A DNA stretch of 64,000 bases, from assembly GCF_900120405.1 (NCBI RefSeq), contig NZ_LT635493.1, positions 1,085,452 to 1,149,451 of the forward strand, given 5' to 3'. Shown here in pieces: positions 31,847 through 46,901 of this stretch (within the stretch, counting starts at the first letter, position 1; each line of letters opens with the position of its first letter). A program made the position numbers and the translations under genes. The notes beneath the pieces were generated by a model. It saw nothing but the letters and a program-made list of their open reading frames with translations. It made no database searches and was not told the origin of the DNA. This DNA comes from Urinicoccus massiliensis (GTDB taxonomy: Bacteria; Bacillota; Clostridia; Tissierellales; Peptoniphilaceae).

Positions 31847-32037
31847 AAATGTAGGGGCGGCCCTGTTCATGACCTAACCCGATGAGAGCGAAGCTCGAAT
31901 CGTAGGTAGGTCAGATGCAGTCTTTCACAGCGAAAGGAGCGTAAGTGAACTTGAGCTGATGAAAAGTTGTAGCCGGCCCTTTATACATACCCGAACATGT
32001 AACCACAAGGGCCTATGGTCTATTTTCGAATAACTTT

Positions 32038-32183: not shown

Positions 32184-32540
32184 ATTAAGAAATCAAAGAT
32201 TTCGGGTTAGGTCATGTCACTGTCGATTTCTACCAATCGGCCTTCGTTTCTCTCGGCCTCTTGGGAAATCTTAGTATCTGACCTACCTACGATTCGGGCT
32301 TCGTTTCTCTCGCCCTCATCGGGTTAGGTCATTATCTTATCTATAGCAGGGATGGTCGCTTGCTGACAAATCAAAGATTTGAAACGCCGCGACCTCTTCC
32401 AGACCTAACTTGGCGACGAAGGAGCCTTAGTAGGTCTTATGCAACCAATTGCCCAAATTTTTAATTTGGCTGCAATTGTCTGCGAACCTTCCTCAATTCA
32501 GCCGACGCTTCGCTTGGCTTCATTGGGATAGGTCATGAAT
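32184..32540 (-). repeat. Concatenated modular stem-loop elements
   Basis: Reading the minus strand: module A variant (GACCTAT..AGGTT), C (paired AATTGC/GCAATT), B (AGACCTA..TAGGTCT), H (GGTCGC..GCGACC), then a second A (GACCTAAC..TAGGTC), F (GATTTC..GAAATC) and a further A start. Each module is its own inverted repeat. It lies just upstream of the rpmG promoter. Confidence 0.75.
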
Positions 32541-34135: not shown

Positions 34136-34837
34136 ATGGCAAAAAGAGGAAAAAAATACCAAGAAAGCCTAAAGCAAGTAGACCGTAGCAAATTCTACGA
34201 CGTAAAAGACGCCCTAGAACTCATCGGTAAAATTGCCAAGGCAAACTTTGACGAAACAGTAGAACTCGCAATGCGACTGGGCGTAGACCCAAGACACGCC
34301 GACCAACAAGTCCGCGGAACCGTCGTTTTGCCCCACGGAACAGGAAAAACCAACCGCGTATTAGTCCTGGCAAAAGGCGACAAAATTAAAGAAGCAGAAG
34401 CAGCAGGCGCAGACTACGTCGGTGGACAAGAATACATCGACAAAATCCAAAACGAAAACTGGTTCGAATTCGATACAATCGTTGCAACTCCTGATATGAT
34501 GGGTCTTGTCGGACGTATCGGACGCGTATTAGGACCCAAGGGCCTAATGCCAAACCCCAAATCCGGCACCGTAACCTTCGAACTAGCCAAAGCCGTAGAA
34601 GACATCAAAGCAGGGAAAGTAGAATACCGCGTTGATAAAGCAGCCATTATCAACGTACCCATTGGAAAAGTATCCTTCGGTCCCGAAAAACTACGCGATA
34701 ACTTCAAAGCCCTAGCATCCGAAGTTATCAAAGCAAAACCTGCCGCAGCAAAAGGAAAATATTTAAAATCCGTAACCGTGTCCACAACCATGGGACCTGG
34801 AATCAAAATCAACGGACAAAAATTAATGGAAGACTAA
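34136..34837 (+). CDS. rplA: 50S ribosomal protein L1
   Basis: 233 residues, full length: [45 protein letters not shown], and the C-terminal [13 protein letters not shown]. Binds the L1 stalk of 23S rRNA and its own operon mRNA. A modular repeat starts directly after the TAA, then the operon terminator. rplJ-rplL-rpoB do not follow. Confidence 0.96.
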
Positions 34838-34958
34838 TGACCTATCCCAATGAAGCCAAGCGAAGCGAAGGCTGAATTGAGGAAGGTCAGATACTAAGAT
34901 TTCCCAAGAGGCCGAGCTAAGCGAAGGCCGATTGGCAGAAATCGATAGTGAAATGACC
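34838..34958 (+). repeat. Modular stem-loop element abutting the rplA stop codon
   Basis: Modules A' (GACCTATCCCAAT...ATTGAGGAAGGTC) and F (GATTTCCCAAGAGGCC...GGCCGATTGG...GAAATC) inserted between rplA and its terminator. Both are inverted repeats with GCGAAG-type tips. Confidence 0.8.
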
Positions 34959-35058: not shown

Positions 35059-35273
35059 GTAGGGGCGATTTTATTCATGACCTAGCCCGATGAGAGCGAA
35101 GCTCGAATCGTAGGCAGGTTCGCAGACAATTGCAACCAAATTAAAAATTTGGGCAATTGGTTGCATAAGACCTACTATGGCTCCTTTGTCGCCAAGTTAG
35201 GTCTGGAAGATGCAATCTTTCACAGCGAAAGGAGCGTAAGCGAACTTGAGCTGATGAAAAGTTGTAATCGCCC
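35059..35273 (+). repeat. REP hairpin split by a four-module insertion
   Basis: Left arm GTAGGGGCGAT (35059 on) and right arm ATCGCCC (to 35273) are separated by about 190 extra bp in what is the loop of empty copies. Modules in order: A (about 35079-35119, GAGCGAAGCTC tip), C (35123-35166, AATTGC/GCAATT), B (35168-35204, AGACCTA/TAGGTCT) and D (35212-35264, TTTCAC..GAAAAG type). Confidence 0.8.
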
Positions 35274-35414: not shown

Positions 35415-35497
35415 GTAGGGGCGATTTTATTCATGACCTAGTCCGATGAGGCCGAGCCAAGCGAAGGCCGATTGGCAGAAATCGACAGTGAAAGCCC
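35415..35497 (+). repeat. REP hairpin with short modular insertion
   Basis: GTAGGGGCGATTTTAT then TCATGACCTAGTCCGATGAG, a GGCC..GGCC hairpin, and the F-type ending GAAATCGACAGTGA, closed by GCCC. It looks like a recombined A/F element. Confidence 0.7.
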
Positions 35498-35583
35498 GAC
35501 CCGCAACCCAAAACATATAAACACAAGGGAACAATGACAACATACATTTATTCCCAATATAAACATATTTCCAATTGCAACAA

Positions 35584-35606: not shown

Positions 35607-35883
35607 AAGACCTTTTCGCGGGGCATGTATAAATATGGGGGATATATTCCCGGGCATATCGCCCGACCCGCAACCCCGAATATATAAATATTGGTAAAAT
35701 ATTTCCCAAACCATCAAAAGCCCGCAACCCCGCAAATATACATATAGGGAATAATTTAAATACACACAAATTCCATCCACCAACCACCCAACCACCCCAA
35801 TAAAAACCAAAAAATAGACAGAAAAAACAAAAAAAGATATAATGATGAAAACGAAAAACCACCCAAAACCACAGGAGCAAACC

Positions 35884-36354
35884 ATGAATCCACACAGAAA
35901 ACAACTTCGCCTAAAAAACTATGACTACCGCTGGAATGGAGCCTACTTCATCACCATAGCAAGCCATCATCGCCAAAAACTTTTCCAAGGCCCCAACCCC
36001 TGCCTAGACCAAATCATCCAAGAAACCTACCAACACATAGAAACCACCTACCCCTATTGCCAAGTCATTGAACAAACCACCATGCCCGACCACCTGCATT
36101 TCCTCCTCATGATCGACGGCCCCGAAAAAATCGAACACCGCCAACCCCTACCCACCATCATCAAAAACTTTAAAGGCTACCTATCCAACCAATACATAAA
36201 AAAAGTAAAACAGGGAAAGCTCCCGCCCTTTCATGAAAAAATATGGCAAAAAGGATATTATGAACGCGTCCTCCGTAGCGAAGAAGAAGTATACCAAGTC
36301 CGAAAATACATCCAAGAAAACCCGTTAAAATTAGCCCTGTTAAAAGAAGAATGA
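35884..36354 (+). CDS. REP-associated tyrosine transposase (RAYT, IS200-like)
   Basis: 156-residue Y1-type HUH endonuclease. N-terminal RLKNYDYRWNGAYFITI is the usual IS200/RAYT start; HUH residues are H70-L71-H72 in MPDHLHFLL; the C-terminal YIQENP (Y142) matches the catalytic-helix motif of RAYTs. Such proteins nick single-stranded REP hairpins next to a GTAG tetranucleotide. The ATG at 35884 has AGGAGC upstream; a longer frame to 35842 lacks one. No partner accessory ORF (TnpB/IscB) is nearby, and inverted REPs flank the gene. Complete and apparently intact. Confidence 0.88.
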   Translation: MNPHRKQLRLKNYDYRWNGAYFITIASHHRQKLFQGPNPCLDQIIQETYQHIETTYPYCQVIEQTTMPDHLHFLLMIDGPEKIEHRQPLPTIIKNFKGYLSNQYIKKVKQGKLPPFHEKIWQKGYYERVLRSEEEVYQVRKYIQENPLKLALLKEE

Positions 36355-41976: not shown

Positions 41977-42147
41977 ACCCGCAAACCCGAATATGTTTGT
42001 ATTGGGAATAAATGTGTATTGACCTTGTTTCCTTGTGTTTATATATCTTGTTTATCCATGTGGGCGACACAGGGTCGCCCCTACAAAACTACATCAAACC
42101 AACCTACATTTTCCTGAAATATACCGATCCGATGATTCAAATTGAGA

Positions 42148-42228
42148 GAAAAAATCGATGAGCCGTTAAAAAAATTCAATGTTTGAGCGAAGCGAGTTTT
42201 GAATTTTTAGGCTTGTCGATTTTTTCTT
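42148..42228. repeat. Long hairpin with GAGCGAAGCGAG tip (copy 1)
   Basis: Outer arms AAAAAATCGA / TCGATTTTTT, then GAGCC / GGCTT, TTAAAAA / TTTTTA and ATTCAA / TTGAAT, tip GTTTGAGCGAAGCGAGTTT. Copy 2 near 46.45 kb has a different arm sequence but equally good pairing. Confidence 0.75.
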
Positions 42229-42237
42229 ACATCCAGG

Positions 42238-42388
42238 GCGTTAGGGTGAGAGGTAGGGGTTTGGGGAAGGATAGGGCGAATCAAGACGCCCTACTTCCTT
42301 CCCCAATATATAGGGAAAAGGGTATATATAGAGAAGAATGTAAATAGGGATGTTCCCTATATAAAATATCCCTGGGAACGGAATAACG
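42238..42388. repeat. 150-bp repeated block (copy 1)
   Basis: From GCGTTAGGGTGAGAGG to GGGAACGGAATAACGGGC; nearly identical to 46535-46688. Contains GGGGAAGG / CCTTCCCC and AGGGCG / CGCCCT inverted repeats, and GTTCCC / GGGAAC further on. It sits between a long hairpin and a REP in both places. Confidence 0.85.
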
Positions 42389-42481
42389 GGCGACACCAGG
42401 TCGCCCCTACAATGGTTTGTGCATTTACACAATCCCCAATCCATTTTTTGGCGAAGGCTGCATTCATTTACGAACAAAAAA

Positions 42482-44140: not shown

Positions 44141-44208
44141 ATTTTTATAAATGGGCCGGGTTTTTGGGCTTGTTTATTCAATTGAAAGAATGTTTGTAGA
44201 AAAGAAAG

Positions 44209-44323
44209 ATGCGCGTTAAGTGTTTATGGAATGGAGATGCCATAAAACGAAGAGTTGGCTCGCGATGCTCTTTCGATCCGCTGCGACATAGGACCTCCTA
44301 TGCTACCAGCGAGAATAGGAGGT
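44209..44323 (+). ncRNA. THF (folT-type) riboswitch with RBS-sequestering expression platform
   Basis: The conserved strings of the tetrahydrofolate riboswitch are present in order: GCGTTAAGTG (44213-44222), GGAATGGAGATGCC, AACGAAGAG, CTCGCGATGC and CGATCCGCTG (to about 44284). Downstream, ACCTCCTAT (44293-44301) can pair either with CATAGG just upstream or, over nine bp, with ATAGGAGGT (44315-44323), the folT ribosome-binding site. The second pairing would block translation. Confidence 0.9.
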
Positions 44324-44332
44324 TATTTTCAT

Positions 44333-44863
44333 ATGAAATCTACATCTTCAAAACGTACTTTATTTTTAGTTGTAATGGCTTTTTTTGTGGCCTTGCAAGT
44401 GGTAGTGGCCCGGGTGGTTTCTCTGGAAATCGGAAATGTTTTTCGGATTAACTTTGCCTTTCTTGTGTCGGCTCTTTGTGGGGCCTTGCTGGGACCGATC
44501 CCGGCGGCGGTTTGCGGGGTCTTATCGGACTTTTTGGGTTTTCTGATCCGGCCTGTTGGGGCTTATCATCCGGGTTTTGCTTTTACGGCGGCCTTGGTGG
44601 GTCTGGCTTATGGTTATTTGCTTCATAAGAAACGTCCGATTTCGATTCCAAATATTATCTTGGCGGGGCTTTTCCAAGTAGTCATTTGCAACTTTTTATT
44701 AAATTCGGCTTGGATTATGTCTTTTACGGGAAATACTTATGTGCAAACTTTGTGGACACGGCTTCCTGTGGAAGGGGTACAAGCTATTGCCAAGCCACTT
44801 ATTTTGGCCCTTGTGCTTCCCCTAGTGGTCCCTATTGTGGAAAGGGAAGTGCATTTAGATTAG
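44333..44863 (+). CDS. folT: Folate ECF transporter S component FolT
   Basis: 176-residue integral membrane substrate-binding subunit of an ECF transporter, about six helices: TLFLVVMAFFVALQVVVARVVSL, INFAFLVSALCGALLGPIPAAVCGVLSDFLGF, PGFAFTAALVGLAYGYLL and so on. It would pair with EcfT/EcfA encoded elsewhere. Start ATG 44333 behind AGGAGG; an upstream extension of the frame covers the riboswitch. The THF riboswitch supports folate as substrate. Confidence 0.93.
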   Translation: MKSTSSKRTLFLVVMAFFVALQVVVARVVSLEIGNVFRINFAFLVSALCGALLGPIPAAVCGVLSDFLGFLIRPVGAYHPGFAFTAALVGLAYGYLLHKKRPISIPNIILAGLFQVVICNFLLNSAWIMSFTGNTYVQTLWTRLPVEGVQAIAKPLILALVLPLVVPIVEREVHLD

Positions 44864-46218: not shown

Positions 46219-46389
46219 GGGCGACACCAGGTCGCCCCTACAGACCATCCACAAATATATCCCCAATATAAACAAACCCGAATCCACAACATGGGCGGCA
46301 CAGGGCCGCCCCTACAGACCATCCACAAATATATCCCCAATATAAACAAACCCGAATCCACAACATGGGCGGCACAGGGCCGCCCCTAC
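46219..46389 (-). repeat. Tandem array of 74-bp REP units
   Basis: REP starts at 46219, 46293 and 46367 are exactly 74 bp apart. The linker (CAGACCATCCACAAATATAT...CCCGAATCCACAACAT) is identical between units, while the first REP has a GGGCGAC stem and the next two GGGCGGC, both arms altered. Confidence 0.9.
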
Positions 46390-46446
46390 AGACCATCCAA
46401 AATTTTTCCCGGATATGTATCGATTCGACTATTTAAAATGAGGTCA

Positions 46447-46522
46447 AAAAATTTGAGATTCGTTAAAAAATTTTGCTGTTTGAGCGTAGCGAGTTCAAAA
46501 TTTTTAGAATCTCAAATTTTTT
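46447..46522. repeat. Long hairpin with GAGCGTAGCGAG tip (copy 2)
   Basis: Outer arms AAAAAATTTGAGATTC / GAATCTCAAATTTTTT, inner TTAAAAATTTTG / CAAAATTTTTA, tip GTTTGAGCGTAGCGAGTT. Arm sequences differ from copy 1 on both sides, so pairing is conserved rather than sequence. Confidence 0.75.
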
Positions 46523-46534
46523 GCTTCTTTCAGT

Positions 46535-46688
46535 GCGTTAGGGTGAGAGGTAGGGGTTTGGGGAAGGATAGGGCGAATCAAGACGCCCTACTTCCTTCCC
46601 CAATATATAGGGAAAAGGGTATATATAGAGAAGAATGTAAATAGGGATGTCCCCTATACAAAATATCCCTGGGAACGAAAGAACGGGC
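46535..46688. repeat. 150-bp repeated block (copy 2)
   Basis: Near-identical to 42238-42388, differing at a handful of positions near the 3' end. Confidence 0.85.
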
Positions 46689-46901
46689 GATCACTGTCGA
46701 TTTCTACCAATCAGACTGCACTTCGTTTGTCTTCTTGGGAAATCTTAGTATCTTCCAGACCTAACTTGGCGACGAAGGAGCCATAGTAGGTCTTATGCAA
46801 CCAATTGTCCAAATTTTAATTTGGCAACAATTGTCTGCGAACCTACCTACGATTCGAGCTTCGCTCTCATCGGGTTAGGTCATGAACCAGGTCGCCCCTA
46901 C
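46685..46901 (-). repeat. REP unit with 194-bp modular insertion (filled site)
   Basis: Arms GGGCGA and AGGTCGCCCCTAC of a 23-bp REP are separated by 194 extra bp. On the minus strand the insertion reads TTCATGACCTAACCCGATG (A), C (AATTG..CAATT), B (AGACCTA..TAGGTCT) and F, ending GAAATCGACAGTG. Subtracting 194 bp puts this REP exactly 74 bp before the REP at 46953. Confidence 0.85.

Follow-up and report, generated by a model that had tools for sequence, protein, structure and literature searches.

A locus in Urinicoccus massiliensis raises the question of what the 194 extra bases in the loop of one of its short palindromic repeats are, and how they came to lie there. The whole stretch of DNA analyzed, 64,000 nucleotides of a 2.09-Mb genome in 13 contigs (G000; positions C13:1085452-1149451), is referred to here as the window, and coordinates are those of the window unless a locus is named. 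It contains GTAG-tagged palindromic repeats, flanked by a DnaJ-domain gene and V-type ATPase genes. The host unit is a REP, being a short multicopy palindrome beside GTAG; searched on both strands of G000 with up to 3 mismatches allowed, the GTAG-tagged REP pattern matches 35 times and its reversed control not at all. In the REP at 46685-46901, the extra bases (46692-46885) sit in the loop.

The loci at 42388 and 46219 match one side each of the filled REP, and both of its flanks therefore have empty paralogues. The left side, 46535-46690, which is 156 bases long and closes with the left REP arm, is 97.4% identical to 42238-42393, which leads into an empty REP at 42388-42411. From ACCAGG on, the right side shares 96.7% identity over 91 bp with 46226-46316, which takes in the empty REP at 46219 together with the sequence downstream of it. 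As an earlier note on this DNA had claimed, the empty sequence exists at both loci, the REPs at 46219, 46293, and 46367 recur every 74 bp (a tandem array of empty REPs at 46219-46410, period 74 by TRF), and the filled unit, with 194 bp subtracted, falls 74 bp before the next REP (46685 + 194 + 74 = 46953). Its reading of the junctions was right in placing the insertion in the loop, but the exact ends needed correction: the filled site reads GGGCGAT/CACTG...GGTCATGA/ACCAGGTCGCCCC and the empty site GGGCGAC/ACCAGGTCGCCCC, the left arms differing by one C/T. No target duplication is present in the pair formed by 46685 and the empty paralogues. On the minus strand, the host REP provides the GTAG tag, 5' arm, and loop start (46886-46901, GTAGGGGCGACCTGGT) and, beyond the insert, the 3' arm (46685-46691, ATCGCCC; GGGCGAT on the plus strand), six bases of which pair with the 5' arm.

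Read on the minus strand, the filled unit is GTAGGGGCGACCTGGT / TCATGACC...CAGTG / ATCGCCC, with hairpin modules in the order C, B2, B1, A. The insert (46692-46885, minus) combines two elements of one covarying family, designated R1, which is ~117 nt long, gene-free, and composed of two unlike hairpins. Module C (46840-46885, minus; TCATGACCTAACCC...GTAGGTAGGT) is the first hairpin of the outer R1, and C with B2 (46797-46883, minus) matches the R1 model at 31.1 bits (E 5.5e-05). Module A (46693-46749, minus) is its second hairpin; elsewhere, the C+A form without B scores with R1, at 59.3 bits at 32219-32332 of the window and at 64.7 bits at L016 702-815. The inner R1, B1 followed by B2, lies in the C-A linker in the opposite orientation (46756-46838, plus; 32.2 bits, E 3e-05). 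The linker from C to the second hairpin measures 1 nt in 14 copies (11 in this genus and 3 in others) and 87 to 88 nt in three G000 copies, where B2-B1 fills it; the count omits the L299 row (111 nt), in which the pattern ran through a second hairpin. Thus, an outer C+A element on the minus strand carries an 87-nt inner B1-B2 element on the plus strand, and since B1-B2 belongs to the family of the element whose linker it occupies, and that element lies in a REP loop, the locus is an element within an element within a REP. The second hairpin that follows C may be of the A type or of the alternative kinds D and E. No ORF of 80 or more amino acids lies within the 194-bp insert, and no transposase is encoded by it. 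Counting the unit itself, G000 contains 25 complete or partial matches to the 217-bp sequence, which together with a constant 12-nt spacing in 18/18 REP cases argues that the insert is not there by chance.

The spacing was determined for loci of G000 and a congener, G001, that were chosen for matching R1 and not by a whole-genome census. In all 18 cases (nine in each genome), including the window copy, the element begins exactly 12 nt after GTAG, as found with a pattern that allowed 8 to 22 nt after GTAGGGG; seven GTAG rows not reading GTAGGGG were set aside. These cases have 13 distinct 12-nt arm-and-loop sequences and 8 distinct 7-base stems. The second REP arm is fully complementary (7/7, G.U allowed) at the expected place in 10 of the 18, as judged, like the linker, with a pattern that had the 12-nt spacing built in and so lends the spacing itself no support. 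Of the remaining eight, the window copy has six paired bases, two (L006 and L020) seem damaged, and the second copy of L005, L007, the first copy of L038, L039, and L178 have altered second arms. At least four kinds of second hairpin follow C in the REP-loop cases of G000, while the D kind is present in 9/9 of those of G001 despite their differing arms (8 distinct 12-nt arm-and-loop sequences and 6 distinct 7-base stems among the nine composites). The claim that a second, modular element occupies the REP loop is thereby borne out, and the diversity is easier to explain by REP loops having been entered repeatedly than by the spread of one composite; arm exchange may be a source of the varied arms.

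Other copies in the window are of both sorts. REP-loop insertions on the plus strand are found at 35059-35273 (modules C, B2-B1, D; arms GGGCGATTTTAT / ATCGCCC; R1 matches at 35077-35174 plus and 35122-35205 minus), at 35415-35498 (a fused C/A copy with the second arm altered to AAGCCC), and at 31851-31979 (C+D form; arm GGGCGGCCCTGT; R1 match at 31869-31970, 40.8 bits). REP arms are absent from the C+A copy at 32219-32332 (minus; 59.3 bits, E 1.9e-11) and from the R1 at 34837-34949 (plus; 42.6 bits, E 1.3e-07), which begins at the stop codon of a gene that by its reading is ribosomal-protein-L1-like (ORF 34136-34837). A further AT-rich palindromic repeat with a GAGCGAAGCGAG-like tip adjoins the REPs at 42121-42230 and 46430-46535; its similarity to the R1 model is borderline (42121-42208, 18.1 bits). 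The window also contains a THF riboswitch (44195-44285; Rfam RF01831, 51.4 bits), which precedes a predicted membrane-protein ORF ending at 44863.

R1 extends well beyond this genus. The hairpin C pattern is present in 30 of 249 genomes of the order (reversed control, 0), and the R1 model finds matches in 115 of the 249 at E<=1e-3, a count for which no genome had more than 14 candidates scored. Among the hosts are Peptoniphilus, Sedimentibacter, Gallicola, [Clostridium] ultunense, Clostridium aminobutyricum, Emergencia, and Gallibacter. Three genomes searched deeper have 64 (G160), 40 (G239), and 32 matches at E<=0.01, and across the order the number per genome runs from 0 to 64. In a phylum-wide sample of 398 genomes, matches were confined to the window genome and its congener. 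In C. aminobutyricum (L133 4535-4748), three tandem C hairpins stand 87 to 88 bp apart and have a different, shorter second module. Some G160 copies (L091, L093, L097) are ~41 bases longer, with an extra hairpin within the second hairpin, a further level of nesting.

The fold was assessed by covariation in an alignment (A1) of 29 two-hairpin copies, the remainder of 33 extracted copies after four of 150 to 159 nt were dropped. Compensatory double changes occur at 18 of 36 pairs, and the double-change cells number 131 vs. a mean of 39.0 (sd 5.1) after shuffling and 10 to 17 with slid partners. Because part of helix 1 and the terminal ACTG were prescribed by the collecting pattern, conservation and invariance there are partly by construction; the free evidence for covariation is mostly that of helix 2, in which 15 of 21 pairs covary. 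G.A-type internal loops (GCGAAGC, GA/GA) suggest that folding takes place on the strand reading ATGACC first, whether in DNA or in RNA form. Rfam has no match for R1 at the thresholds used; none was obtained for the window copy at E<=5, and the region around a consensus-like copy gave five weak, unrelated matches, the best at E 0.063. Nor does R1 figure in any title found in the literature searched (open-licence PMC text), where short R1 consensus strings led only to papers with unrelated titles. The window insert is the visible tip of an order-wide element family absent from Rfam and from the literature searched, and R1 would seem to be a family of very small mobile elements not described before.

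Where these copies sit was examined most closely in G160. Among the 8 bases that precede the element, five or more are T at 34/44 of its array heads, compared with 6.9% of 8,800 control positions at the same loci and 10.0% (244/2,440) of intergenic positions with long open frames excluded. The 50 nt upstream of the heads fold at a mean of -13.5 kcal/mol vs. -5.4 and -5.9 in two controls. This analysis used 55 of 58 rows and omitted three weak ones (L094 868, L280 618, L286 653). Outside G160, 80 unique C copies, reduced to 75 heads by dropping five tandem followers (two tandem C copies of L133 were kept as heads), gave 50/75 behind T-rich ends vs. 8.0% of 3,210 control positions. Neither a T-rich end nor a GTAG arm precedes 20 of the 75; tRNAs or rRNA leader stems lie ahead of some of these, and about half have no recognizable stem. 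At 12 of 14 loci chosen by eye for T-box-like upstream sequence, a T-box leader lies upstream of R1 on the same strand at the Rfam T-box threshold, and at one T-box locus R1 is kept in three species of one genus (the G032 stretch being partly masked). Other heads have their start at the 5S rRNA 3' end or two bases past a tRNA CCA, and in three rRNA/tRNA regions of G191 all 23 R1 matches are on the transcribed strand. T-runs, CCATT, AGGT, TGGTTC, and GGAAA are among the sequences before the R1 start, with no fixed preceding base, and most copies outside this genus lack a GTAG tag. R1 prefers the 3' side of folded stems, mainly terminators. The tip of a REP foldback, which the earlier note took for the target of the element, does not hold as its general target: REP loops are a local one, in this genus, and in the rest of the order R1 is found mostly downstream of terminators and in other cases of tRNAs and rRNAs.

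We considered targeting of a replication strand and rejected it. In G160, with replichore limits set at 0.5 and 2.5 Mb from skew, 59/64 R1 are on the leading strand, but so are 159/183 long ORFs in 20 sampled stretches, and the bias is uninformative beyond gene orientation.

Several observations were made in passing at these sites. At prophage-like loci (L071 1381-1620, also L029, L069, and L166), R1 follows a terminator-like hairpin between portal-like and protease-like genes, within what appears by eye to be a short duplicate of the start of a ClpP-like head protease gene; this site recurs in several genomes. A Clostridiales-2 RNA (RF02937; L266 17418-17512) lies just downstream of a tRNA cluster rich in R1. 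The 16S rRNA copies of G191 (L266, L267, L268) have Rfam match lengths of 1507, 1507, 1682, 1797, and 1798 bases, which suggests intervening sequences in some of them.

Filled and empty states can also be compared among the rRNA operons of G191. The 16S-23S spacer reads GAGAA/CGACATT in three operons and GAGAA/(GATGTCC...GAGACTGCG)/CGACATT in two, an insertion at one point without target duplication, accompanied by a single additional A in the flank. Downstream of 5S rRNA, a complete R1 starts from the gene end in one operon, an internally deleted remnant is present in two, and two have none. Tandem copies of R1 are common. The earlier note had looked to the position of inserts within REPs and to orthologous empty sites as tests of its reading. 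Insert positions relative to the REP loop are indeed nonrandom; the orthologue of the window locus in G001 (L028) is also occupied, however, and empty states were seen only at paralogous sites. No transposition of R1 was observed, and the comparison with this congener yielded no strain pair with an orthologous empty site.

As to the enzyme, a putative RAYT-like Y1 transposase is encoded at 35842-36354 (plus) within a dense REP array. It scores 41.5 bits with Pfam Y1_Tnp, above the cut-off, and its nearest NCBIfam family is REP_Tyr_transpos (72 bits, below the cut-off of 80); as a candidate REP mobilizer, this protein may serve the REPs. A Y1 match is missing from 7 of 20 R1-bearing genomes searched, including G032 with at least 14 R1 matches, and reverse transcriptase (PF00078) is missing from 5 of 14 (G239, G237, G169, G225, and G005). 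IS200-like loci were tried as a source of R1 and rejected: of seven Y1 loci in G000, only the RAYT locus (L026) matches R1 modules, and L026 is also the only one among 36 Y1 loci of this and other genomes with R1 within ~1.5 kb of the Y1 gene. A gene-bearing parent element was sought at L153, where the C hairpin precedes an ordinary glycolytic gene (phosphoglycerate-kinase-like by reading). Clustering of 681 ORFs beside R1, which omitted the rRNA regions and several other loci, gave no recurring transposase among the 25 largest clusters as judged by eye; these comprise housekeeping and prophage genes.

Anatomy, covarying fold, site preference, filled and empty paralogous sites, and nesting are matters of direct observation. 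Taking them together, we think it probable that R1 is a family of small non-autonomous mobile elements that insert 3' of folded stems and leave the target unduplicated. Such an element, ~117 nt long with two hairpins that would fold on one defined strand, would insert mostly behind the T-run of intrinsic terminators, but also at tRNA and 5S rRNA 3' ends and in rRNA spacers. In this genus it would enter the loop of GTAG-tagged REP hairpins as well. It is found within other R1 copies, too, and 46685-46901 is a REP loop with an outer C+A element holding an inner B1+B2 element in its linker. Movement would use a folded single strand, most likely single-stranded DNA together with a hairpin-binding nuclease acting in trans. 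A far broader proposition, which we advance tentatively and hold to be rather doubtful, is that R1 is the first known gene-free mobile element to target the 3' side of folded stems in general (terminators, tRNAs, 5S rRNA, REP foldbacks, and R1 itself), and that its integration as a folded single strand through a host or trans-acting enzyme has produced self-nesting hairpin arrays in rRNA operons and T-box leaders across the order.

Might R1 not be mobile at all? It could instead be a structured RNA with a function, such as the processing or stabilization of transcript 3' ends, that ordinary recombination duplicated and selection kept. Strong covariation, G.A-rich internal loops on one strand (read by eye), the transcribed strand at 23/23 sites in the three G191 regions, and retention at a T-box locus in three species, which fits selected function too, all speak for this. 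Against it, one genome has paralogous rRNA operons with no R1 at the spacer position in question, copies are found after terminators unrelated to one another, in REP loops, and in other R1 copies, and genomes of the order differ in the number they have, from 0 to 64; we regard a purely functional RNA as unlikely. The same palindromic nesting could result from enlargement of a REP by template switching or hairpin slippage in place of insertion, all modules being palindromic and nested and the 5S site having deletion remnants. The same modules with the same ends also occur outside REPs and in other families of the order, by which this explanation is largely refuted and hardly credible.

If R1 does move, the machinery might be that of its REP neighbors, R1 being mobilized as single-stranded DNA by a Y1 enzyme (RAYT/IS200-like) and REP plus R1 forming a larger REP spread by the RAYT of 35842-36354. 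The RAYT-like gene indeed lies in the REP array of the window, the REP+R1 composites retain the GTAG tag, and folded single-stranded REPs are substrates of TnpAREP (PMC8266576). We nonetheless find this improbable: the nine G001 composites combine one kind of R1 with 8 arm-and-loop sequences and 6 stems, which is not what amplification of a single unit would give; Y1 matches are missing from G032 despite its 14 or more R1 matches; and most R1 copies elsewhere lack the GTAG tag. Alternatively, R1 could move as RNA, by reverse transcription onto or beside transcript 3' ends, in the manner of group IIC introns at terminators. Many junctions do fall at natural RNA 3' ends (T-runs, the 5S end, two bases past tRNA CCA), and terminators are insertion sites of those introns (PMC4424553). 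Against this stand the absence of features of group II introns (at the thresholds tested Rfam gave no match, and the length is only ~117 nt), the lack of a reverse transcriptase match in G239 (40 R1 matches) and G237 (at least 14), and the fact that REP loops are not known RNA 3' ends, so that we consider a route through RNA quite improbable. Insertion of a small non-autonomous element beside folded stems remains the reading that we prefer.

If that reading is true, about half of the sampled genomes in one anaerobic Firmicutes order carry an unnamed folded element behind terminators and in rRNA operons, REP loops can serve as landing pads for gene-free elements, and R1 is a natural probe of the structures recognized by an integration machinery. 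R1 also affects the annotation of terminators, T-box leaders, and rRNA spacers.

How does R1 compare with known systems? Like MITEs, it is short, gene-free, and multicopy. Its ends, ATGACCTAACCC and GAGACTGC, are not mutually inverted, and a target site duplication was found neither in the 16S-23S spacer pair nor in the REP filled/empty pair. Integron attC sites have the motifs RYYYAAC and GTTRRRY; a likeness to them was rejected, because ACCTAAC in R1 fits RYYYAAC but the other side fails GTTRRRY. Palindrome-associated elements derived from IS200/IS605 have two subterminal imperfect hairpins, no inverted repeats, and no duplication, and elements of the IS200/IS605 type recognize, at their left end, an invariant target of four or five nucleotides. 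R1 shares with them two subterminal hairpins folded on one strand but lacks an invariant short target motif, and some of its hosts are without a Y1 match.

GTAG REPs, REPINs, and RAYTs, as described in the main text of PMC3733652, are close to the host unit: the REP of the window has the GTAG tag and the arms, and a RAYT-like gene is nearby. R1 itself is mostly without GTAG outside REPs, has two unlike hairpins, and is present in genomes without a Y1 match. Words beginning with Clostridi, Firmicutes, or Peptoniphilus are absent from the main text of that survey. Insertion sequences that enter REPs are known, among them IS1397, ISKpn1, IS621, ISPpu9, and ISPa11 (PMC1525189). Specific entry into REP palindromes is common to them and R1, but they are full insertion sequences with transposases, whereas R1 is gene-free and REPs are only one of its site types. 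Group IIC introns insert behind a terminator motif, with a smaller fraction at folded attC sites (PMC4424553). R1 likewise lies behind intrinsic terminators (34/44 and 50/75 heads, with a T-box upstream at 12/14 chosen loci); it differs in its length of ~117 nt, in having neither Rfam-recognized intron domains nor a reverse transcriptase, and in residing also in REP loops and in its own copies. The statement of the earlier note that no named family behaves in this way consequently stands for the combination only, and not for its parts, REP-entering insertion sequences and terminator-entering group IIC introns being known (PMC1525189 and PMC4424553).

BOX, RUP, and SPRITE of Streptococcus pneumoniae are small folded repeats that insert into one another (PMC3049150). 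By that account they are, like R1, small, gene-free, folded, modular (BOX), inserted in each other, and enriched between convergent genes. BOX and RUP are reported there with terminal inverted repeats and target duplications, of which R1 has neither, and BOX was compared by anatomy only; SPRITE is described there as itself terminator-like, whereas R1 follows terminators. R1 fails at least one tested defining feature of MITEs, group IIC introns, IS200/IS605-type elements, and REP-targeting insertion sequences. It belongs among the small non-autonomous folded repeats, with features common to several known systems.
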